A stretch of DNA of 56,320 bases from a bacterium BMS3Abin02 (GTDB lineage Bacteria > Actinomycetota > Acidimicrobiia > Spongiisociales > UBA4744), in contig BDSU01000031.1 of NCBI GenBank assembly GCA_002897675.1, positions 1-56,320 of the forward strand, in the 5' to 3' direction. Shown piece after piece: positions 5,091 through 56,320 of the stretch (the first letter of the stretch is position 1; every line of letters starts with the position of its first letter). Made by a program: the position numbers and the translations under genes. The notes beneath the pieces were generated by a model. The model made no database searches and was not told the DNA's origin. It was given only the letters and a program-made list of their open reading frames with translations.

Positions 5091-7826
5091 TCACGAACCT
5101 GCCGCGAGTTGGATCCCGGGCGATCGAGGGTCGGGTTCGCTGTGTTCAGCCTGGCCTCGGGCGGCCGGCTCAAGGACATCGGTGCTCGATGAGGGCGGTC
5201 GCGCGAGGTGGTCGATGACGGCGGTCTGGGCTCGGCTGTGTTCGAGTGACATTGCCAGAGTGTCGAGATCTCCCTTCCAATCCGGATGGGTGAGGTGGGT
5301 GCACTGTTCGTTCGCTGGTTGGGGGTTGGTGAGGTAGAGGGTGTTGGTTTGCCGGCCGCGGCTCATGGCGACGTAGACCCATTCCCGGTCGGTAGCACCC
5401 TCGATCACGGTGAACGTGCGGTCGGTGGTGACGCCTTGCGCTTTGTGACCGGTCATTGCGTAGCCGTAGTCGACGTGCCCTTGATCGAGGTACCAGACAG
5501 GCAGGTCTCTTCTCTCGGGGTCACGGTCGAGCTGCACGTCAAGCGTGCCGTGGTCTGGGTCGACGGAGACGACGATGCCGAGGTCACCGTTGAGTATCCC
5601 GAGCCGACTCTGGTTTTGGCGGCACAGGATCCGGTCACCAGCCTGGAAGACCCGTTCTCCTGTTTCAAGGGCGGGTCCGTGGAGTCGGTTGGATGCGGCC
5701 AGGTGGGTGCGGGCCCTTTGGTTGAGTTCGGTGACGGTGTCGTTGTCGTAGGCGATGAGCAACCCTGAGGTGAGGTCACCGGTAGCTGCAACGTAGCGAT
5801 ACCAGTCGTCCACTGCTCGTGTGATCGTGTTGTCTCGGTCCTGTCCGATGATCAGACGTCGATGCTGTTGGTAGGCGTTGATCGCTTGGTCGACGGACCC
5901 GTTTCGGAGTTGGGTGAGGGCGACACGCTCCCACATCTCGTGTTGACGAACATTCTCGGTCAGCTCGGCCGCCGGGAGCCGGTTGACCAGGGCCCGAAAG
6001 AGGCCTCCGGCTTCGATCTCGGGTAGCTGACGGTCGTCACCGATCAGGATCAGCTTCCCTTGCGCCTGTTCTACGAGGTCGGTGACGGCGGCGAGTTGGC
6101 GGGTGCCTACCATGGCTGCCTCGTCGACCACCACGATCGCACCGTCGGGGAGACCACCGTCTCGGTTTTCTCCTATCAGTCGGGTGAGGGTGACAGACGG
6201 GATCCCAGTGGCTGCTTGGAGGCCGGCGGCGGTCCTGCCGGCCAGCGCCGCCCCGAGAATCGGGGTGCCGGTCATGGCGGCGAGCTGGCTGATCACGGCC
6301 ATGACTGCGGTTTTGCCGGTTCCTGCCGGCCCGATGCCGACGTCGATAGTGTCGCTCGAGGTGGCGAACCGTCGCACCATCTCGGCCTGTCCTTCGGTGA
6401 GGTGCCGGTGGCGTCGCAACCTGCCTTCGACCAGACGGTCGGGTGCGCCCCATCGTCCGGCACCGATCCCGGCGATGGCCTGTTCGATGGTCCGCTGCTC
6501 GGTGGCCAACAGTTCGACGGTCGTGTACTGGCGAGCCACGGTGCCGGGGAACAGGGTGCCGTCGCGACGTCGCATCGGACGGGACACCGCCTCCGTGGCT
6601 GGCTCGACGCTCGTTTCGAGCTCGACCGGATCCTGATCCTCGACGTCGCGTCCGGGTAGGAGCGGTACAACGTCGGATGTGTTGAGGAACGTCTCGGCGA
6701 GGGATTCAATCTGGCTTCGTGTGCCCCCCTCCGGCAAGGCCGCCGCTACCTGCTTGACCACTTCGGCTCGCCCGAACGTGGAGGCCCGTTCGGTGAGCCC
6801 GGCGGGCGAGGCAAGCCGTTTGAACAGCACCTCGGGATCGGCCGGCGGGACATCCCTGCCGCCACCCATCAGCCGGACGATCCGTCCGGGGGTGAGACCC
6901 ACCTCGACGGCCCGCTGTTTCCATTCGACCTCGAGGTCGGCGAGTGGATGATCCTGCTTTGGGCTGCGGGTGGCCAACACTGCTACCTGTCGCGCCGTCG
7001 CGGTGTCCGGCAGGCCTTGTTCTTGGCGCCACTCCTCGAGTTGGTGACGTCTCCGGGAGAACGCTTCGATCTGGGGGCGGGTGAACCCGGCAATGTCGGC
7101 CATCCCGTTGCGGATCGGCTGCCAGCGAACCCCCAAGCGTTCGGTCAGTTCTTTTCGTAGGACGGCTTCGTGGAGGTACCCGGCAGCCAGCTGATACCGA
7201 TACAGCAACCTGCCGTCCACCGTCCGCCACACCCCATCTGTCCCTTTGACCTTGTTGGCGACCACCACATGAGTATGCAGCTGAGGGTCGTCGGCACGAG
7301 ACGTGAACTCGGTGAACGACGCCGCCACATACCCTGACGTCTTGATCGACCAGGTCTCCACCCGAAACCTCCGACTGTCGTTCTCGTTGCGGATCGGGTC
7401 GCCGTTGACGTCGAGAACCGGGGTCTTGGTAGCGCCCCTGGTTGACGACGCGACCGACTCCAAATACCGAAACGCCGCCCCGGTGGCCTCCTCGAACGCC
7501 GACACCACCTGCTGACGGGTCTCGAGATCTCCCAAAGCCCACAGCAGTGACACGGACTTGTCCGCCGAGAACGTCACATCCCACGCCGCCACCCCATCCC
7601 TCCGCAAACACCGTCCCAACCGCTCACCGGTGCCGGGATGCTGACCATCAAACAGGCGGACCAGACTATCTGCGGTCACTGTCCCCGACAGGCCCATCTC
7701 GGCGGCGCCTTTCCCTCGCCAGATGCCGGTGGCGGTGCCACCGCGCAGGTAGTAGTCCTCCCCGGGGGAGATCTCCCCCAACTTGCGCAGGTAATAGTCC
7801 TTGGCGGCCTTGGCCAAACTCAACAC
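5091..7826 (-). CDS. MobF-family conjugative relaxase with helicase domain
   Basis: The product is 911 residues from a GTG start. The N-terminal TrwC-type relaxase domain has tandem tyrosines (DYYLRKL near residue 11 and DYYLRGG near 25) as nicking candidates and a three-histidine metal motif, DDPQLHTHVVV, near residue 180. A RecD/TraI-like helicase follows: Walker A GPAGTGKT near 497, Walker B VVVDEAAM near 565, GDDRQLPEIEAGG, and the late motif TGHKAQGVT with YVAMSRGR. It would nick oriT, bind the 5' end and unwind the strand for transfer. Its GTG overlaps the stop of the small gene upstream. A close relative starts at 54887. Confidence 0.9.
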   Translation of the reverse strand: MLSLAKAAKDYYLRKLGEISPGEDYYLRGGTATGIWRGKGAAEMGLSGTVTADSLVRLFDGQHPGTGERLGRCLRRDGVAAWDVTFSADKSVSLLWALGDLETRQQVVSAFEEATGAAFRYLESVASSTRGATKTPVLDVNGDPIRNENDSRRFRVETWSIKTSGYVAASFTEFTSRADDPQLHTHVVVANKVKGTDGVWRTVDGRLLYRYQLAAGYLHEAVLRKELTERLGVRWQPIRNGMADIAGFTRPQIEAFSRRRHQLEEWRQEQGLPDTATARQVAVLATRSPKQDHPLADLEVEWKQRAVEVGLTPGRIVRLMGGGRDVPPADPEVLFKRLASPAGLTERASTFGRAEVVKQVAAALPEGGTRSQIESLAETFLNTSDVVPLLPGRDVEDQDPVELETSVEPATEAVSRPMRRRDGTLFPGTVARQYTTVELLATEQRTIEQAIAGIGAGRWGAPDRLVEGRLRRHRHLTEGQAEMVRRFATSSDTIDVGIGPAGTGKTAVMAVISQLAAMTGTPILGAALAGRTAAGLQAATGIPSVTLTRLIGENRDGGLPDGAIVVVDEAAMVGTRQLAAVTDLVEQAQGKLILIGDDRQLPEIEAGGLFRALVNRLPAAELTENVRQHEMWERVALTQLRNGSVDQAINAYQQHRRLIIGQDRDNTITRAVDDWYRYVAATGDLTSGLLIAYDNDTVTELNQRARTHLAASNRLHGPALETGERVFQAGDRILCRQNQSRLGILNGDLGIVVSVDPDHGTLDVQLDRDPERRDLPVWYLDQGHVDYGYAMTGHKAQGVTTDRTFTVIEGATDREWVYVAMSRGRQTNTLYLTNPQPANEQCTHLTHPDWKGDLDTLAMSLEHSRAQTAVIDHLARPPSSSTDVLEPAARGQAEHSEPDPRSPGIQLAAGS

Positions 7827-8155
7827 CAGCCACCCCCGGGAGCAACTGGTTGCAGATGCGTGTGTCGCGAAGGACGGTGGTTTTGGAGGTGGTCAATCCT
7901 GGTTGGGGTGTGTTGGTCGACGAGGCCTCGGTGTTCATGGATCGTGGTTGTTCTGGATCGGGTGATCTCGCCTTCAGCAGCTATTGAGAATCCGCACTCG
8001 TCCAGAAGGGCTGGTTCGGTCGGTTCCCGGTCTGTGTCCGGAATCGGTGCCATCCGCGTTTCGATGCGGGAGTTCCGAAGACCCGTCCAGACGATGGCCA
8101 GACCTGCGATGAGGTCGCGGTCTTCGCTGTGGTCGACGCTGCGTGCAGGCTCCAT
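7820..8155 (-). CDS. Small conserved protein coupled to the relaxase gene
   Basis: The 111-residue frame starts MEPARSVDHSEDRDLIAGLA and ends RHTHLQPVAPGGGWC. Its stop overlaps the relaxase GTG by seven bases (GTGTTGA), so translation is coupled. Element 2 has the same gene at 54561-54893 in the same relation. The proteins stay in register across many substitutions with one residue length difference, which supports real coding. No known domain was recognised; conserved parts are the GL.IVWT.LR segment and the C-terminal HTHLQPVA.GG.WC. A longer start (TTG at 8176) is possible. A role as a relaxase accessory protein or translational leader is an inference. Confidence 0.55.
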   Translation of the reverse strand: MEPARSVDHSEDRDLIAGLAIVWTGLRNSRIETRMAPIPDTDREPTEPALLDECGFSIAAEGEITRSRTTTIHEHRGLVDQHTPTRIDHLQNHRPSRHTHLQPVAPGGGWC

Positions 8156-8176
8156 GTCGGCCAGTAGACAGCCCAA

Positions 8177-8222
8177 CCCTCTCAGCAGAGTTTCAGTAAC
8201 CCTCTCACCAGAGTGTCAGTAG
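8177..8222. repeat. Two 23-bp tandem repeats (control region, element 1)
   Basis: The units at 8177-8199 and 8200-8222 begin CCCTCTCA(G/C)CAGAGT and end TCAGTA, with a partial third unit CCCTCC at 8223-8228. Element 2 carries two equivalent units in inverted orientation at 54494-54539. They lie just upstream of the small gene and relaxase. Iterons of this kind usually bind an initiator or regulator, or form part of oriT. Confidence 0.7.
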
Positions 8223-8315: not shown

Positions 8316-8371
8316 AAATGGCAACCAAATAACAGGCCTGTTGACACTCAAATGGCATCGAGATGAAAGGG
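8316..8371. promoter_or_regulatory. Paired 21-22 bp repeats around a palindrome (element 1)
   Basis: The units at 8316-8336 and 8350-8371 both begin AAATGGCA and end in ACAGG or AAAGGG, 34 bases apart, on the same face of the helix. Between them is the palindrome AACAGGCCTGTT (8331-8342). The arrangement recurs in element 2 at 54344-54399, where the palindrome is TGACAGGCCTGTCA. It lies between the divergent excisionase and small-gene/relaxase units, so it is probably a shared operator. A TTGACA at 8341-8346 could be a -35 box for the excisionase gene. Confidence 0.6.
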
Positions 8372-8391
8372 TCCCATCGCACACTCGGAGG

Positions 8392-8583
8392 ATGAACAAT
8401 CTTGATCCGCTGCTCTCGGCCCAAGAACTCGCCAACTACCTCGAAGTCCCCATCGCAACGATCTACGCCTGGCGCTGTCGCGGAGAGGGCCCACCAGGGT
8501 TCCGCGCCGGCAGACACCTCCGCTACCGGTGGGCCGACGTCGAGCGTTGGATCAGAGGCCGAATCAGCGAGCGTACTGGCTGA
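8392..8583 (+). CDS. Excisionase-type helix-turn-helix protein
   Basis: From the ATG at 8392 the product is 63 residues: MNNLDPLLSAQELANYLEVP, then TIYAWRCRGEGPPGFRAG and a basic tail. This is the MerR-like fold of the HTH_17/AlpA excisionase family, which bends DNA at att sites and steers the integrase to excision. GGAGG ends directly at the ATG with no spacing, so initiation may be weak or leaderless. It faces away from the relaxase unit and converges with the integrase gene. Repeats of one family flank it at 8341-8372 and 8624-8655. Confidence 0.78.
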   Translation: MNNLDPLLSAQELANYLEVPIATIYAWRCRGEGPPGFRAGRHLRYRWADVERWIRGRISERTG

Positions 8584-8623
8584 CCTTGCGAGATTCACCG
8601 GAGAAGACGTAATAGCGGCTCTG

Positions 8624-8655
8624 CTGACACACAGATGGCATCGAGATGACAGGGT
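8624..8655. repeat. Third copy of the excisionase-flanking repeat
   Basis: CTGACACACAGATGGCATCG and the bases following it match 8341-8372 almost base for base (TTGACACTCAAATGGCATCG and on), both ending GATGA(A/C)AGGGT. The copy lies 40 bases beyond the excisionase stop, before the integrase 3' end. It may be a further binding site of the same regulator. Confidence 0.55.
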
Positions 8656-8698
8656 GCCGACGAGAAGCCGCTCCGGGCAGGGGAGAAGCCTTGTTCGC

Positions 8699-9847
8699 CT
8701 ATCTGGCCTCGAGTTCGGCAGTGCCCTCCCTGTACAGATTCTCGAGCAGGCCCCTGGTTGTGTCGAAGGCGTCGGGAAAGAGGTGCCCGTAGCGATCAAG
8801 TGTGACTTTCGCAGAACTGTGGCCGGCATGGATCTGGATCTGCAGGGCGGGTGCTCCTGCAGCGATCAGGAACGCGACGGAAGTATGTCGAAGGTCGTGA
8901 GGGGTGACATTCTCTAGGCCAGCCACGTCTAGGGCGGGCTTCCAGTACCGGCGATTGAAGTTTGAACGGCGCAAGGGCCGGCCCTCCCTGGACGTGAAGA
9001 CCAAGTCCTCCGGATCATCTGAGATGCCCGACAAGTGTCTCACCAATCGATCGACGACCCCCGGAGGCACCGCAGCCGTTCGGGCCCGATCTGTCTTCGT
9101 CCCCTTGAACATGAATCCGCCACCCGGCTTCTCGACGAGCGAACGGGACACCATCAGACGTCCCCGCTGGATATCGATGTCGCGGCGACGCAACGCCACG
9201 GCTTCTCCCCACCGCAGCCCGCCGAACGCCATGACCAGCACCAGGGCGTCGTACACAGGAGTCAGCGCGTCGGCCAATCGTGCCACCTCGAAAGGAGTGA
9301 GGTATCGGTCTCGCTTGGGAGGTTCAGGAAGTGTGATCCCTTCCGCAGGGTTCTTGGCTATGTAGCTGTTCCTAATTGCCAATCGGAGGACCGCAGTGAC
9401 GACCCTGAACGCCTGGCGGCGCCGCGACAGCGACAAGGGAAGCTCAGCCAGCCACTCTGATAGTCCGAGGTTGTCAATGTCGCCGAGGGGTACCACACCC
9501 CATCGCGGCAGCACGTGGACGTCCAACAACGAGCGGTAGCCGGCGATCGTGTTCGGCGACTTGTCCCGGAGAGTACGGAACCATCTCTCTGCCAGCCTCC
9601 CGAAAGTAGTGAGCGCTCGTCGCGGGTCGGTGTAGGAGCCGCTAACCAGATCGGCGGTGACGTGCTCTAGAAACCGATCCGCCGCTGCCTTGGTCGGAAA
9701 GCCGGCCTTCGTCTGCCGCTGCCCGGCTGGATCCTTCCAGACCGCTCGCCAGGAGATGTTGTTGCGGCTGGCGCTCTTCGTGGGATCCCGCTTGTACTTG
9801 TGCGTGTGGCTCACGGTCGGATTGTACGAGCGAGCATCTGTGAGCAC
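8699..9847 (-). CDS. Tyrosine integrase of element 1
   Basis: The 382-residue protein has an N-terminal arm-binding part (VWKDPAGQRQTKAGFPTKAA), a SAM-like core-binding domain around residues 80-170, and a catalytic domain. Catalytic residues are Arg212 (FGGLRWGE), His317/Arg320 (HDLRHT), His343 (HAGH) and Tyr353 (LDRYGHL). The GTG at 9847 is used here. A GTG at 9814 (VSHTHKYKRD) is equally possible because neither has a clear ribosome site. The gene start lies 40 bases from the tRNA-Phe 3' half, the expected place for the integrase of a tRNA-targeted element. It is not close in sequence to the element 2 integrase. Confidence 0.92.
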   Translation of the reverse strand: MLTDARSYNPTVSHTHKYKRDPTKSASRNNISWRAVWKDPAGQRQTKAGFPTKAAADRFLEHVTADLVSGSYTDPRRALTTFGRLAERWFRTLRDKSPNTIAGYRSLLDVHVLPRWGVVPLGDIDNLGLSEWLAELPLSLSRRRQAFRVVTAVLRLAIRNSYIAKNPAEGITLPEPPKRDRYLTPFEVARLADALTPVYDALVLVMAFGGLRWGEAVALRRRDIDIQRGRLMVSRSLVEKPGGGFMFKGTKTDRARTAAVPPGVVDRLVRHLSGISDDPEDLVFTSREGRPLRRSNFNRRYWKPALDVAGLENVTPHDLRHTSVAFLIAAGAPALQIQIHAGHSSAKVTLDRYGHLFPDAFDTTRGLLENLYREGTAELEAR

Positions 9848-47331: not shown

Positions 47332-48678
47332 ATGGCGCTGCGCGATCTGCCCTCTGTCGACACGCTCGTTCGATCCCTCGAGGGCGAGGGACTTCCGCGG
47401 CTTCTCGTCGTGGACCTCGCCCGTGACGCCATCGACCAAGCCAGGAAGATCACGGCAGCAGGCGGAACCGCCGATCCGCACCAGACGGCAGACGCTGCAC
47501 TCCAGGCGCTCCGCTCCCTTCGTCATCGCCCCGTGTTGAACGCAACAGGAGTTCTCCTACACACGAACCTCGGAAGAGCACCGTTCGTTCCCGCGGCCGC
47601 CGACGCCGCTCGGGCGGTGGCAACCTCCTACGGGAATCTCGAATTCGACCTCGACAAGGCGAGCAGGGGTGGCAGGAGCGAATACGTACATCGCCTCGTT
47701 TGCGCACTCGTCGGAGCGCAGGCCGCGCTCGTCGTCAACAACAACGCCGGCGCGCTGCTCCTGGCTCTTGCGACTCTTGGCCGTCACCACCCGGTGGCCA
47801 TCTCGAGAGGTGAGCTGATCGAAATCGGTGGGTCGTATCGACTCCCCGAACTCATGGCCGCTTCCGGAGCACGCATGCTCGAGATCGGAACGACGAACCG
47901 AACTCGCCTTGCAGATTACGAGCAGGCACTCGATGACGGCGCCGGGATGATCCTGAAGGTGCATCCTTCCAACTACCGGGTCGTCGGTTTCACCGACTCG
48001 GTGCCACTCGACAAGCTCGTCGCCCTGGCGCGCCAAAGAAACGTTCCTCTGGTCTATGACGTCGGTAGTGGCCTGCTGGACGAGAGTGCCCCATGGCTCG
48101 ATGGTCCGCCGCCCCGCTGGCTCCGTGGCGAGCCGGGCATCCGCCAGGTCCTCGATGTCGGAGCGGACCTGGTGACGTTCTCCGGCGACAAGCTCCTCGG
48201 AGGCCCGCAGGCCGGCATCATCACCGGGACAGCTCACCTGGTCTCCGAACTGGCGCATCACCCGATGGCGCGCGCTCTGCGGATCCCCGGTCCGACGATC
48301 GCCGCGCTGACGGTGACGCTCGAGATGTACGCCGATGGAAAGGGTTCGGAGATTCCATTCTGGGCAATGGCATCAGCCTCCTACGACTCTTTGGAGCGTC
48401 GAAGCGAAGCCGTGCTCGACGCATCACACGTTGAGGCGGAAGTGGTCCCCGGAGCATCGGTACCTGGTGCCGGCTCCGTTCCCGGTGCGGAAGTTCCCTC
48501 TCCGCTCATCAAGATCAGCGAGCCGGGCGCGGCCGTCCTCTGGCCGAGGCTCCTCCGCGCCACTCCACCGATCATCAGCCGGCGAGACGCAGGAAGAGTC
48601 GTTCTCGACCTCCGAGCAATCTCCCCCGAGGACGACGAACGTCTGGCCGCGGCGCTGGAATCCGCATGCCGGTCATAG
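47332..48678 (+). CDS. selA: L-seryl-tRNA(Sec) selenium transferase
   Basis: The 448-residue protein starts MALRDLPSVDTLVRSLEGEG. SelA features include VLNATGVLLHTNLGRAPFVP, ALVVNNNAGALLLALATLG, SRGELIEIGGSYRLPELMAA, GTTNRTRLADYEQAL, VHPSNYRVVGFT and the PLP lysine in FSGDKLLGGPQAGIITG. It turns Ser-tRNA(Sec) into Sec-tRNA(Sec) with selenophosphate. The selB gene overlaps its end by 13 bases. A Gly/Val/Pro repeat (EVVPGASVPGAGSVPGAEV) near residue 385 is unusual and looks like a small tandem expansion. Confidence 0.95.
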   Translation: MALRDLPSVDTLVRSLEGEGLPRLLVVDLARDAIDQARKITAAGGTADPHQTADAALQALRSLRHRPVLNATGVLLHTNLGRAPFVPAAADAARAVATSYGNLEFDLDKASRGGRSEYVHRLVCALVGAQAALVVNNNAGALLLALATLGRHHPVAISRGELIEIGGSYRLPELMAASGARMLEIGTTNRTRLADYEQALDDGAGMILKVHPSNYRVVGFTDSVPLDKLVALARQRNVPLVYDVGSGLLDESAPWLDGPPPRWLRGEPGIRQVLDVGADLVTFSGDKLLGGPQAGIITGTAHLVSELAHHPMARALRIPGPTIAALTVTLEMYADGKGSEIPFWAMASASYDSLERRSEAVLDASHVEAEVVPGASVPGAGSVPGAEVPSPLIKISEPGAAVLWPRLLRATPPIISRRDAGRVVLDLRAISPEDDERLAAALESACRS

Positions 48679-50456
48679 GGACCGCCGGCCACGTCGATCA
48701 CGGCAAGTCCACCCTCATCCAGGCGCTCACGGGCCGAGACCCGGACCGCTGGGAAGAAGAGAAGCTGCGGGGCCTGACGATCGATCTTGGTTTTGCCTGG
48801 ACGACACTTCCCGACGGGACAGAAGTCTCCTTCGTGGATGTTCCCGGCCACCAGCGTTTCATCAAGAACATGCTTTCGGGGATCGAGGCCATCGATGTCG
48901 CGCTTTTCGTCGTTGCCGCCGATGAAGGCTGGATGCCACAGTCCGAGGAACACCTGGCAGTCCTGGACCTCCTCGGTGTCCGCCACGGTGTCGTCGCAAT
49001 CACCAAGACCGACCGCGTCGACTCGGACCTCGTGACACTCGCCGCCCTGGAGGTCGAGGATCGCCTCGAAGGGACGACTCTCGAGGGATCGACGATCGTC
49101 CCCGTCGCGCCGCCCACCGGACTTGGCGTCGCTGCACTCGAAGCTGCTCTGGTCGAGGCGGTCGGGGCGGCAACACGAACATTCTGCGACGGAGGCCAGG
49201 CGCGAATGTGGATCGATCGTTCGTTCACTATCGCCGGTTCCGGCACCGTGGTCACTGGTACGCTGCTCGACGGCCCCCTCTCCGTCGACGACAAGGTCAT
49301 GCTCTGGCCCGGCCGAATCAGTGCGCGTATTCGCTCGCTGCAGAGCCACGAACGCAGCCACACGACCATCCAACCTCATACGAGGGCCGCAGCCAACCTC
49401 GTCGGCATCGATCATCATGAAGTTTCACGCGGTGCCATGCTCGGCGCCCCCGACGCGTGGTCGACGACAAGGCGCTTCCTCGCTTCGATCGACTCCGCCC
49501 GCTATGTCGAAGAACCCCTCACGGCCAAAGGAGCGTTCCATCTGCATCTCGGAAGCGGAACGAGGCCCGTTCGCCTCCGACCCCTCGGTGGCACCGGGAT
49601 CCTGGGTTCGTCGTATGCACTCCTCTCGGTCGACGAACCGGTTGTGGTCAAGATGGGGGATCGATTCATCATCCGAGAGGTCGGGCGAAGGCAGGTCGTC
49701 GCAGGTGGGCGAGTCCTCGATCCGGATCCCGCCGGCCGAGACCGAGACACTCTGGCGACCGGACCGGCTCTGTCGGCCGTCCTCGATCGATCTCCGGCAG
49801 AGATGGCCACCGCCCTGTTACAGGCACGGGGCACCGACGAGATCGAGCACATCGCACGCCACACCGGAGGCGGCACACCCATCGGCCTTCTGGCAGGCGG
49901 ACTGGCGATCTCCAACGACACCGCGCACGACCTGATCGGCAGAATCTCACACGAGGTGCAGACCTTCCATGGCGACAACCCACTCCGTCCCGGTTTGCCC
50001 AAAGCCGACCTCGCGAGCCGTCTCGGGGTCTCGGTGACGACTCTCGATGCGCTCATCGCCCTTTCTTCCGCCGTACGTGACGATGGCCCGGTCATCGCAG
50101 CGATTACGTTCTCACCCGCTTTTGGACCGGCGGAGGACGCTGCTCGCACAGCAGTGATCGCCACCCTGGAAAGCGCCGGCCTGACCGTGCCACGAGTTCA
50201 AGATCTCGAGATCGATCGGGAACTGCTTCATGCGCTCCTACGAGGAGGAGATCTCATCCAGGTGTCCGAAGATCTCGTCTTCCTGCCGGCGCAGATCGAC
50301 ACGATCAGGACGGGCCTGACCGATCTCCCCAATCCCTTCACCGTCGCCGAGTTCAGAGACCGTTTCGAGATCTCACGCAAATACGCGGTGCCGCTCCTCG
50401 AGTGGCTCGATGCTGCCGCGGTGACGAAGCGCAGCGGGAACGTTCGCACGTATTGA
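48666..50456 (+). CDS. selB: Selenocysteine-specific elongation factor
   Basis: The 596-residue protein starts MPVIGTAGHVDHGKSTLIQA with G1; G3 is VDVPGHQRFIKNM; the NKxD motif is ITKTDRVD. Domains II and III follow (FTIAGSGTVVTGTLLDGPLS). The C-terminal part holds winged-helix repeats for binding the SECIS hairpin (LPKADLASRLGVSVTTLDAL; FTVAEFRDRFEISRKYAVPL). It delivers Sec-tRNA to in-frame UGA codons. No selC, selD or clear selenoprotein was seen in the window, so those must lie elsewhere. Confidence 0.95.
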   Translation: MPVIGTAGHVDHGKSTLIQALTGRDPDRWEEEKLRGLTIDLGFAWTTLPDGTEVSFVDVPGHQRFIKNMLSGIEAIDVALFVVAADEGWMPQSEEHLAVLDLLGVRHGVVAITKTDRVDSDLVTLAALEVEDRLEGTTLEGSTIVPVAPPTGLGVAALEAALVEAVGAATRTFCDGGQARMWIDRSFTIAGSGTVVTGTLLDGPLSVDDKVMLWPGRISARIRSLQSHERSHTTIQPHTRAAANLVGIDHHEVSRGAMLGAPDAWSTTRRFLASIDSARYVEEPLTAKGAFHLHLGSGTRPVRLRPLGGTGILGSSYALLSVDEPVVVKMGDRFIIREVGRRQVVAGGRVLDPDPAGRDRDTLATGPALSAVLDRSPAEMATALLQARGTDEIEHIARHTGGGTPIGLLAGGLAISNDTAHDLIGRISHEVQTFHGDNPLRPGLPKADLASRLGVSVTTLDALIALSSAVRDDGPVIAAITFSPAFGPAEDAARTAVIATLESAGLTVPRVQDLEIDRELLHALLRGGDLIQVSEDLVFLPAQIDTIRTGLTDLPNPFTVAEFRDRFEISRKYAVPLLEWLDAAAVTKRSGNVRTY

Positions 50457-52577: not shown

Positions 52578-52651
52578 CGGGACGTGGCGCAGTTTGGCAG
52601 CGCGCAGCGTTCGGGACGCTGAGGTCGCCGGTTCAAATCCGGCCGTCCCGA
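52578..52651 (+). tRNA. tRNA-Pro(CGG), attachment site of element 2
   Basis: Acceptor CGGGACG pairs with CGTCCCG; the anticodon arm is CAGCG, loop TTCGGGA with anticodon CGG, CGCTG; the T-arm is GCCGGTTCAAATCCGGC; the discriminator is A and CCA is encoded (52652-52654). C1-G72 is typical of tRNA-Pro. A -10-like TATCAT is at 52562-52567. The gene is intact, and the integrase begins just beyond, so element 2 has rebuilt its 3' end. Confidence 0.93.
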
Positions 52652-52834
52652 CCAGAAAGGTGCTGGTCAGGGCTCTGTCACCAGGGTTCTGGCCAGTACC
52701 CGATTCTTTTCATCCCGCGTTTATCCCGCGATCGTTCCTTGACATTCCTCGACGACAACTCATTGCTCATGAGCGGAGACCCCAGCGGCTTTCTCGATCA
52801 GCATCGGCACACGGTCAGAGATGCCGGCGAACTG

Positions 52835-53965
52835 TCATGAACCTTCTGGCCCGGCCACCGCGCTCCCAGAATCGGTGGTCGATGGCATCAACCTCGCCCC
52901 CAGCTTCTGCGCAGCCGACCGGTCTCCCTCCGCTGTCGCCTGGGCGTAGATGGCCAGGGTCAACCGTGGATCGGAGTGCCCGAGCCGGGCCTGCGCCGTC
53001 TTGACATCCACTCCGTCGAGGACCATCGCCGTCGCATTGGTCCGCCTCAAGTCGTGGAACCCGAGGCCCGTCAGGTCGGCACTCTCCACGGCTGGCAGCC
53101 ACACCCGCCGCCTCCAATTGGAATAGTCCAGCGGTCCGCCGTCCGCATTGGCAAACAAGAAGGCGTCAGGCTCGGCACCCGTCAGTCCACGATGCGCAAG
53201 ATGGATGCTCAGAAGGTTTGCCAACGCCACTGGGATGGTCAGAGTTCGGTGCCCAGCAGCGGACTTCGGCGGACTCACGAAGCCCACGCCGCCCATGCCC
53301 CGCGTCACCTGTTCGGCCACAGTCACTGTCCTGCGCAACAGGTCGATGCGTCCAACCCGCAGCCCGGCGACCTCACCCCATCGAAGCCCTAGCACCGCCC
53401 CCAGCCACACCATCGGCGCGAATTCCTCCGGCATCGAATCCGCCAGGCGAATGAGGTCTCGAGGCTCCACGATCCTCACCGCTGCAGGCTCGACTGCCGG
53501 AAGCCGGATCCCCCTGCACGGTGACCGCAAGATCAGATCAGTTTCGACCCCGTAATTGAGGACCGCCCGTACAGTTCCGTACATGCGACGAACGGTCCGA
53601 GGCGCCATCCTGAGCGACCAGTCGGTTACCAACGCGCGGATGTCACCCGGTGTCAACGATCCGATCTTTCGCTGCCCCAGAGCCGGCAGCACATGCACCC
53701 GAAGAGCACTCTCGTCACGTGCGAGGGTGGATTGCCGCTTGGCCGGGTTGCTCTGCAACCACTCCATGGAGAGCTCGGCCAACGAGACGTTCGCCCCTCG
53801 CGGATCGACCCATGCTCCCCTCGCCTTCGCCGTACGCTGAGCCGCCTCGTACTCAACGGCCTCTCGCTTGGTTCGGAACGTTCGTGACACCTCGCGTCCG
53901 TCGGGGCCGCGCAAGCGCACCTCATAGACCTTGCCTTTTTGGGTGCTGCGTTGATGGATACTCAT
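52835..53965 (-). CDS. Tyrosine integrase of element 2
   Basis: The ATG at 53965 follows AAGGAGG closely and gives 376 residues, MSIHQRSTQKGKVYEVRLRG. Arm-type and core-binding domains lead to the catalytic part: Arg195 (GLRWGEVAGL), His304/Arg307 (HDLRRT), His330 (LGHSD) and Tyr340 (AIYAQAT). The 3' end of the gene faces the tRNA-Pro, 184 bases away. It differs throughout from the element 1 integrase, as expected for a different tRNA target. Confidence 0.93.
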   Translation of the reverse strand: MSIHQRSTQKGKVYEVRLRGPDGREVSRTFRTKREAVEYEAAQRTAKARGAWVDPRGANVSLAELSMEWLQSNPAKRQSTLARDESALRVHVLPALGQRKIGSLTPGDIRALVTDWSLRMAPRTVRRMYGTVRAVLNYGVETDLILRSPCRGIRLPAVEPAAVRIVEPRDLIRLADSMPEEFAPMVWLGAVLGLRWGEVAGLRVGRIDLLRRTVTVAEQVTRGMGGVGFVSPPKSAAGHRTLTIPVALANLLSIHLAHRGLTGAEPDAFLFANADGGPLDYSNWRRRVWLPAVESADLTGLGFHDLRRTNATAMVLDGVDVKTAQARLGHSDPRLTLAIYAQATAEGDRSAAQKLGARLMPSTTDSGSAVAGPEGS

Positions 53966-54081
53966 GGCGCCTCCTTGTGACGTCCCGTCAAGAAACATAC
54001 AACCCATCTCTGACAGCACGACTCCAGCGATGTCTATGCCGGCTACTCGGGCGAGACAAAAGGAGGTCCACGGATCGGAAC

Positions 54082-54560: not shown

Positions 54561-54893
54561 ATGGAGCCTGTCCGCAACGTCGAGCACAGCACCGGTAGGG
54601 GCCTCGTCGCAGGTCTGGTCGTCGTCTGGACGGACCTCCGGGACTCCTCCATCAGAGAGCCGGCGACGACCCCGGATACGAACCGGGAACCAACCGAACC
54701 AACACTTCACGACCGGCACGAATGCTCAGCAGCCCCCAAAGGCGCACTCACCCGACCTATCACCACCGCGATCCACGATCACCAAGACCTGATCGACCGA
54801 AACGCCTGCACCAGGATCAGCCGCCTCCAACACCATCGTCCTTGGCGACACACGCATCTGCAACCAGTTGCTACCGGAGGTGCTTGGTGTTGA
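54561..54893 (+). CDS. Small conserved protein coupled to the relaxase gene (element 2)
   Basis: The 110-residue frame reads MEPVRNVEHSTGRGLVAGLV and ends RHTHLQPVATGGAWC. It is homologous to the gene at 7820-8155, kept in register over its length with scattered substitutions. Its stop overlaps the relaxase GTG by seven bases, as in element 1. A GTG at 54531 would add ten residues. No domain was recognised. Confidence 0.55.
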   Translation: MEPVRNVEHSTGRGLVAGLVVVWTDLRDSSIREPATTPDTNREPTEPTLHDRHECSAAPKGALTRPITTAIHDHQDLIDRNACTRISRLQHHRPWRHTHLQPVATGGAWC

Positions 54894-56320
54894 GTTTGGC
54901 CAAGGCTGCCAAGGACTATTACCTGCGCAAGTTGGGGGAGATCTCCCCTGGGGAGGACTACTACCTGCGCGGTGGCACCGCCACCGGCATCTGGCGGGGC
55001 AGCGGCGCCGCCGAGCTGGGTCTGTCGGGGACGGTGTCGACGGAGGGTTTGGTGCGCCTGTTTGATGGTCAACATCCCGCAACGGGTGAGCGGCTGGGAC
55101 GCAGCCTGCGGAGGGATGGGGTGGCGGCGTGGGATGTGACGTTCTCGGCGGACAAGTCGGTGTCATTGCTGTGGGCTCTCGGCGACGAGAACACCCGGGA
55201 GCAAGTGCTGTCGGCGTTCGAGGAGGCCACCGGGGCGGCGTTGGGGTATTTGGAGGCGGTAGCCTCATCGACCAGGGGTGCCACCAAAACCCCGGTCCTT
55301 GATGAGAGTGGCGACCCGATGCTCAACGAGAATGGGACACCCAAGTTCCGAGTCCAGACGTGGCCGATCGCTACGACGGGGTATGTGGCGGCGTCGTTCA
55401 CGGAGTTCACGTCTCGCGCCGACGACCCGCAGTTGCACACCCATGTGGTGGTCGCCAACAAGGTCAAAGGCACCGACGGGGTATGGCGGACCATCGACGG
55501 CAGGTTGCTATACCGGCATCAGCTCGCCGCCGGCTACCTCCACGAAGCCGTCCTCAGACACGAGTTGACGGAGCGCCTGGGGGTGGGTTGGCAGCCGGTC
55601 CACAACGGGATGGCCGACATCGCCGGGTTCACCCGCCCTCAGATCGAAGCGTTCTCCAGGAGACGCCACCAACTCGAGGAGTGGCGGGAGACCCAGGGCC
55701 TTGCGGACACCGCAGCGGCACGACAAGTAGCGGTGCTGGCCACCCGCACCCCAAAGACAGACCATCCCCTCGAAGACCTCGAAACCGGATGGAAACAGCG
55801 GGCCGTCGAGGTCGGTCTCACCCCCGACCGGATCGGCCAGATGTTGGGTGACGGCAGCGGCGTGACACCGGCCGATCCCGAGGTGCTGTTCAAACGTCTG
55901 GCCTCACCTGTCGGGCTCACCGAACGCGCCGCCACGTTCGGGCAGGCCGAGGTGATCAAGGAGATCGCCGGGGCACTCCCCGAAGGTGGTACTCGCGACC
56001 AGATCGAACACCTCGCTGAGACGTTCCTCGACACCCGGGATGTCGTACCGCTCCTACCCAATCCCAACACCGAACAGGCCGAAGAACTGGATCCCCTCGT
56101 TGGTGTCGAAGGTGACCAGGCCGCCGAGCTGGTCGGCGACGAGGAGGGTAGGCGGCTGATGCGTCGCCGGGACGGGAGCCTTTTCCCCGGTGTGCGACAC
56201 GAACACCGCTACACCACCGCCGAGCTGCTGGTCACCGAGCAGCGGATCATCGAACAGGCCATCTCCGGGATCGGTGCCGGCCGATGGACCGCACCCGACC
56301 GTCTGGTCGAAGCCAGGTTG
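54887..56320 (+). CDS. MobF-family relaxase (element 2), cut by the window edge
   Basis: The GTG at 54887 opens a frame that runs to the window end, 478 residues without a stop. It follows the element 1 relaxase closely from the first residue: tandem tyrosines in KDYYLRKL and EDYYLRGG, DVTFSADKSVSLLWALGD, the three-histidine motif DDPQLHTHVVVANK, and GMADIAGFTRPQIEAFSRRR. Differences include a small insertion near DESGDPMLNENGTPK. The helicase part would lie beyond the edge. It would nick the transfer origin of element 2. Confidence 0.9.
   Translation, partial: MLSLAKAAKDYYLRKLGEISPGEDYYLRGGTATGIWRGSGAAELGLSGTVSTEGLVRLFDGQHPATGERLGRSLRRDGVAAWDVTFSADKSVSLLWALGDENTREQVLSAFEEATGAALGYLEAVASSTRGATKTPVLDESGDPMLNENGTPKFRVQTWPIATTGYVAASFTEFTSRADDPQLHTHVVVANKVKGTDGVWRTIDGRLLYRHQLAAGYLHEAVLRHELTERLGVGWQPVHNGMADIAGFTRPQIEAFSRRRHQLEEWRETQGLADTAAARQVAVLATRTPKTDHPLEDLETGWKQRAVEVGLTPDRIGQMLGDGSGVTPADPEVLFKRLASPVGLTERAATFGQAEVIKEIAGALPEGGTRDQIEHLAETFLDTRDVVPLLPNPNTEQAEELDPLVGVEGDQAAELVGDEEGRRLMRRRDGSLFPGVRHEHRYTTAELLVTEQRIIEQAISGIGAGRWTAPDRLVEARL

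Follow-up and report, generated by a model that had tools for sequence, protein, structure and literature searches.

A short reading frame crossing a putative oriT into MobF relaxase starts is kept in frame but not in residues and is probably a translated leader

Introduction

What is the role of a short open reading frame (ORF) that lies directly upstream of a conjugative relaxase gene and shares bases with its start? The question is raised by the window analysed here, a stretch of 56,320 nucleotides that contains two integrative elements, A and B, both of which carry a tyrosine integrase gene and a gene for a MobF relaxase. In both elements the relaxase is preceded by such an ORF, which the first-pass annotation of this DNA described as an unknown small protein coupled to the relaxase. 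The literature searched contained nothing pertinent on leader ORFs associated with relaxase genes. In the present study, comparison with relatives indicated that the ORF is probably a translated leader, selected for its frame and free in its sequence, which would couple ribosomes through the origin of transfer (oriT) into the next start; it probably does not encode a functional protein.

Organization of the window and of the leader ORF

The features of the two elements are listed in Table 1. The relaxase of element A matched the TrwC (2.3e-74) and AAA_30 (1.6e-50) profiles, that is, the TrwC domain plus SF1 helicase by which MOBF is defined. An excisionase-like HTH gene is present in at least element A, and element B adjoins a tRNA-Pro gene. 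A 38-bp stretch following the HTH gene (8621-8658) is repeated with 87% identity before that gene (about 8338-8375), and this flanking pair is possibly related to excision or attachment. Elsewhere in the window the selenocysteine genes selA and selB are adjacent (47332-50456), and no tRNA-Sec was reported by ARAGORN in the window.

Table 1. Positions of the leader ORFs, the putative oriT cores and neighbouring features in the window
Feature	Position	Strand	Remarks
Leader ORF, copy A	7820..8155	-	ATG 8153-8155, TGA 7820-7822; 111 codons
Leader ORF, copy B	54561..54893	+	110 codons from ATG
Putative oriT/nic core A, GCAACTGGTTGCAGATGCGTGTG	7842..7864	+	inside leader ORF; strand antisense to relaxase gene
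Putative oriT/nic core B	54849..54871	-	same 23 bp as core A, identical
Two 23-bp direct repeats (8175-8197, 8198-8220)	8175..8220	-	just 5' of leader ATG, copy A
MobF (TrwC-type) relaxase-helicase A, 911 aa	5091..7826	-	GTG start overlaps leader stop
MobF relaxase B	54887..56320	+	cut by window end
HTH_17 (excisionase-like) gene	8392..8583	+	divergent from leader ORF A
Tyrosine integrase, element A	8699..9847	-	–
Tyrosine integrase, element B	52835..54019	-	adjoins tRNA-Pro 52578-52654

Both frames were confirmed to be open and to abut the start of the MobF relaxase. From ATG to relaxase start the two copies share 75% DNA identity, and their DNA alignment holds a single 3-nt indel. The seven-base overlap GTGTTGA is, as first described, identical in both copies. 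However, GTG-TTG-AGT encodes the Met-Leu-Ser of the relaxase, and the TGA in the +1 frame was found there in 28 of the 29 relaxase starts compared, the sole exception (L063) being a distant relaxase. The identity of the overlap is thus dictated by the relaxase and provides no independent evidence for the ORF. No clear Shine-Dalgarno sequence was seen before the leader ATG when the alignment was judged by eye, and the relaxase has its own GGGGGTG or GGAGGTG.

Two further explanations of the region were considered and rejected. An N-terminal extension of the relaxase is contradicted by upstream stops in the relaxase frame of most relatives. An RNA hairpin sequestering the relaxase start was likewise discarded: among five stretches folded, no consistent sequestering structure was found near the start, four folding no better than shuffles and one (L013) folding better around the start (z -2.79). 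By record title the relatives are mostly Acidimicrobiia or Actinomycetes, with some Acidobacteria MAGs; no plasmid or viral relatives were found in the searches made.

A putative oriT core within the ORF

The upstream regions of the relaxase genes were compared after removal of eight duplicates between collections. Their alignment contained one near-invariant block, CACACGCATCTGCAACnAGTTGC, and most of the bases that vary in it occupy codon position 1 or 2 of the window ORF. Reversed, this block reads GCAACTnGTTGC-AnnTGCGTGTG, an inverted repeat and then a GT-rich stretch; the core so defined has 23 bp, with an inverted repeat of 5 bp. In MOBF systems an oriT is recognised by an inverted repeat 5' of nic, about 8-9 nt before the cut, beside the relaxase gene, and the block was found to have this layout. 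We infer that it is a putative oriT core with the nic site, which is predicted to lie in or just after GCGTGTG. In the orientation observed, the relaxase gene would be the last part to be transferred, as is the case in known systems. The possibility that the core forms a strong DNA hairpin was considered separately and rejected (z -0.46), the 5-bp stem being weak alone.

The core pattern occurs twice in the window, once per element, with none expected by chance. Within the order, 65 sites (counted by hand) were found in 39 of 138 genomes, and the reversed-pattern control gave none. A set of 41 genomes chosen around a different family of the same class contained no copy, and the core is absent at three distant MobF genes (L060, L061 and L063).

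Conservation of the frame before relaxase genes

The leader ATG was located by an automatic rule. In all 19 in-phase relatives so found, the ATG stands 19-20 nt past the AGGGTT/C end of the last upstream repeat. By this rule no start was detected in 6 of 26 relaxase loci, and in 19 of the 20 loci with a detected start the length from ATG to relaxase was 2 modulo 3. These 19 loci have 11 different lengths (161-350 nt), and in every one the frame stays open as far as the overlap codon, where it stops. Starts picked by eye, before the automatic rule was written, were in phase in 20 of 22 cases with 12 lengths.

The stop codons are in agreement with this phase. Between start and core, 21 sequences contained no stop in frame, and 22 and 24 stops in the other forward frames. 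When clusters of related sequences were taken as units, the choice of frame before relaxases gave P=0.0001. Column-shuffled alignments were never as stop-poor as the real one in group A (0/1000); the smaller groups gave P values of 0.02 (D), 0.17 (C), 0.09 (B) and 0.14 (E), three of the five groups being non-significant taken singly. Coding on the opposite strand was rejected, as the three reverse frames of the same sequences contained 23, 39 and 33 stops.

Insertions and deletions lead to the same conclusion. Within the leader ORF they are of 3, 6, 9 or 21 nt, or are compensated (2+1), whereas in the 200 nt 5' of the ATG they are mostly not multiples of three (1, 2, 7, 8, 10, 11, 13, 22 and others). 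The spacing from the core (end of GTTGC) to the relaxase start is 15, 24, 33 or 36 nt, and in L035 and L037 an extra base within the core is offset by one missing base after it. The exceptions are few: in L047 and L052 the leader is broken by an in-frame stop, together with a degenerate core; in L051 the start is lost (ATG to ATC); L026 and L036 have no recognised leader start; and the leader of L020, which adjoins a run of N, is not in phase. Frequent frameshifts in relatives, which the first-pass annotation had named as evidence against a gene, were looked for and not encountered. The frame itself stands as annotated, real and tied to the relaxase start, with one phase, no stops, indels in multiples of three and a stop overlapping the start. 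These comparisons indicate that the leader frame is NEVERTHELESS selected.

Several observations were made at single loci. One genome (G014) holds six related copies of the MobF relaxase, among which are L047 and L052. In L020, L048 and L057, the DNA upstream of the relaxase contains a run of N and a short piece of the N-terminus of a different relaxase (MLSLAKAHKDYYL), an arrangement that is probably an assembly join of two copies. In L014, L055 and others, copies of TGACAGGGT and of the inverted ACCCTGTCA flank the leader ORF upstream of the core, and may possibly form an operator for a regulator.

Recurrence of the frame bias upstream of an unrelated gene

All order-wide core sites not already among the relaxase relatives were examined, which gave 44 further sites. 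In at least 38 of these (one a duplicate), as judged by regular expression and inspection, the core is followed by a gene for a SEC-C protein and not by a relaxase (L099, L102-L110, L112-L123, L125-L135 and L137-L141, about 38). The protein has about 170 residues, begins with M-x-LDRG and ends in a SEC-C motif, following the pattern M-x-LDRG...WSTWKRYC..SMGRAI..LI..EL...GRNERCPCGSGLKYKHCHG. The motif was matched by Pfam in the one protein tested (E 2.1e-7), is visible in four others and is broken in L109; the middle of the protein looks ribbon-helix-helix-like from its sequence. An integrase was present nearby in all four SEC-C loci tested. The window relaxase was matched by tblastn in 2 of the 44 loci, a search in which this relaxase type alone was sought and many contigs were short; in L101 and L142 a relaxase start is present and is too short or too broken for a tblastn match. 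Most of the sites therefore look like relaxase-less elements sharing the oriT, and they are possibly satellites of the MobF elements.

At these sites the spacing from core to SEC-C start is 34 nt (15 sites), 35 (10), 32 (6) or another value (6) and thus falls in all phases, so that the relaxase-less elements read the core in other frames, giving unrelated peptides. Nevertheless, the frame leading into the downstream start is poor in stops. Over the last 40 codons before the core, 35 SEC-C sites contained 29/7/27 stops in the three frames, the coupled frame being lowest (24 clusters, P<5e-5), and over 100 codons 89/36/65 (P=0.0007); this test leaves out L103 and L111 and includes L139 and the duplicate L100. 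An ATG was detected by the automatic rule in just 10 SEC-C sites, of which 9 are in the coupled phase; examples of the distances from start to core and from core to SEC-C start are 301/35, 306/33, 241/32 and 124/35. A position-weight search for starts gave seven matches scoring above 15, four of them in phase and three, which have no ATG, out of phase. Since the core-to-start distance takes all phases and the coupled frame is still stop-poor, the frame tracks the downstream start and not the core or the peptide.

A coupled leader is recognised by a frame kept from its own start to the downstream start and by a stop that overlaps this start. Both features were found before both genes. The overlap is forced by Met-Leu-Ser at the relaxases, and at the SEC-C genes it takes the form TGATG, the stop lying over the ATG, at 30 of 37 starts (hand count; the 31 counted by script include the false case L103). 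The spacing and TGATG tallies leave out L100, L101, L124, L136, L139, L141 and L142.

This overlap bears on a rival explanation in which the leader is translated only to shield its transcript from Rho-dependent termination, its coupling to the relaxase start being incidental. We regard this as rather unlikely, although the leader sense strand has more C than G in 21 of 21 sequences and the four relaxase genes sampled have at least as much G as C. Shielding has no need of a stop placed exactly on the next start, yet TGATG stands at most SEC-C starts. Because the sense strand is so consistently C-rich and G-poor, protection from Rho may nonetheless add to coupling or replace it.

Constraint on the encoded residues

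If the ORF encoded a conserved protein, purifying selection and a domain or confident fold would be expected of a small-protein family, and neither was found. The comparison of codon positions proposed by the first-pass annotation gave 25/24/29 changes at positions 1/2/3 between copies A and B (108 codons); such equal change is the result that the annotation itself had said would speak against a gene. Relaxase genes of the elements compared, used as a control, showed a strong third-position excess, for example 37/17/88. The NG86 ratio between the copies was 0.65 and was nothing special, the other frames giving 0.63-1.08. A gene-like third-position excess was also absent in fourteen more pairs of relatives, the largest counts being 6/7/10 and 8/8/12. 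Under codon models, omega was about 0.8, 0.65 and 0.75 in three groups of ORFs and 0.05-0.1 in the relaxase, and omega=1 was not rejected in any of the three (2dlnL 1.50, 1.53 and 1.71). Values of 0.6-0.8 leave room for weak constraint on the residues.

The peptide had no match to a Pfam or PHROG family, and the AlphaFold2 model had no secondary structure (pLDDT 53.1, pTM 0.11). Among eight aligned peptides nine residues are invariant, and seven of these come from the DNA core; the sole conserved motif, the C-terminal HTHLQ.VA, is the putative oriT core itself. A conserved small protein was accordingly set aside as the principal explanation. These results do not bear out the claim of an unknown small protein, and that of a real gene needed for relaxase translation or function divides into two halves: its link to translation is favoured here, while a protein serving relaxase function is not. 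Because the codon positions are flat and yet frameshifts are infrequent, the frame is conserved above chance and the amino-acid sequence is not. What the sequences compared retain is an open frame that follows the downstream start; the residues it encodes are not retained.

A genuine small protein that evolves very rapidly, under weak or diversifying selection, and works together with the relaxase, perhaps as an accessory factor of the relaxosome, would account for the kept frame and start codon, for omega point estimates below 1 and for the codon composition of the leader, which is depleted in T at position 1 and enriched in C at position 3. It agrees poorly with the flat codon positions and an omega indistinguishable from 1, with the lack of a family or fold, with the origin of most invariant residues in the DNA core, with leader lengths of about 55 to 118 codons, and with the unrelated peptides of the relaxase-less elements; we consider it unlikely. 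Finally, a purely non-coding oriT region, with the ORF as a chance open frame in GC-rich DNA, would explain the equal codon-position change, the core conserved as DNA and the forced GTGTTGA, but is very improbable given the phase agreement over 11 lengths, the 21 sequences devoid of in-frame stops, the indels that come in multiples of three within the ORF but not beside it, and the recurrence of the frame bias upstream of an unrelated gene.

Discussion

The reading preferred here is a translated leader that couples ribosomes through the oriT into the next start. Ribosomes would start at the leader ATG, 19-20 nt past the conserved repeat, cross the putative oriT and terminate at the downstream start codon, where they would re-initiate to make the relaxase or, in relaxase-less elements, the SEC-C protein. 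Selection would then preserve an uninterrupted frame from the leader ATG to the downstream start, and the encoded residues would drift almost neutrally, save where the DNA is also the oriT core. Plausible benefits are that the C-rich transcript of the oriT is kept covered by ribosomes, and that synthesis of the relaxase comes to respond to proteins that occupy the repeats or the oriT. That the leader is translated, that the relaxase depends on it and that coupling is the reason for its conservation are suggested by sequence comparison. More tentatively, the oriT inside a sequence-free leader could serve as a conduit for ribosomes, in which proteins binding the oriT or the repeats would switch the synthesis of transfer proteins and so couple oriT occupancy to expression; this is possible, though somewhat doubtful.

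These findings illustrate that a reading frame can be strongly selected while its protein is not, a distinction that annotation of small ORFs usually conflates. Moreover, a candidate oriT is now available for a set of MOBF elements from one bacterial order and for the satellites that they may have, and a testable link is proposed between the oriT, translation of the leader and the supply of relaxase. If this is true, the oriT would be a DNA landing site and would also help to control expression of the very gene whose product acts there.

A coupled leader ORF is of a known kind; its placement across an oriT, its use in both relaxase-bearing and relaxase-less elements, and conservation of frame without sequence were not found described in the literature searched. 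In Escherichia coli, a leader ORF translationally coupled to iraD has been shown experimentally (PMC5574718). The stop of that leader overlaps the start of the downstream gene, as is the case here. Unlike the iraD leader so described, the present one spans a putative conjugation origin and precedes two unrelated genes, and the evidence for it is evolutionary and not experimental.

With respect to the core, the F plasmid TraI oriT, in the 49-mer and 30-mer substrates described in PMC5422253, has an inverted repeat GCAA..ACTTGT..TTGC and then a GT-rich stretch, and in the site given there as GCGTGGGGTGT / GCAAAAACTTGTTTTTGCGTGGGGTGT nic lies after 27 nt. Among the cores of the present study the most frequent, GCAACTTGTTGC followed by GCGTGTG, resembles a shortened form of the same layout, and the relaxase is likewise MOBF. 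For TrwC, with which the core layout was also compared, the distance is eight nucleotides before the cut. Unlike the F oriT of those substrates, the putative core has a stem of 5 bp instead of 8 and lies inside an ORF beside the relaxase start.

The candidate relaxase-less elements recall the iOriT, defined in PMC11389934 as integrative mobilizable elements with an oriT and without a relaxase. Like these, they appear to carry a tyrosine integrase, together with a putative oriT core that is the same as in the relaxase-bearing elements, and this type of relaxase was not found in most of the stretches searched (up to about 3 kb downstream). Unlike the iOriT as defined there, the candidate elements described here carry a conserved SEC-C protein right behind the oriT and the leader ORF.
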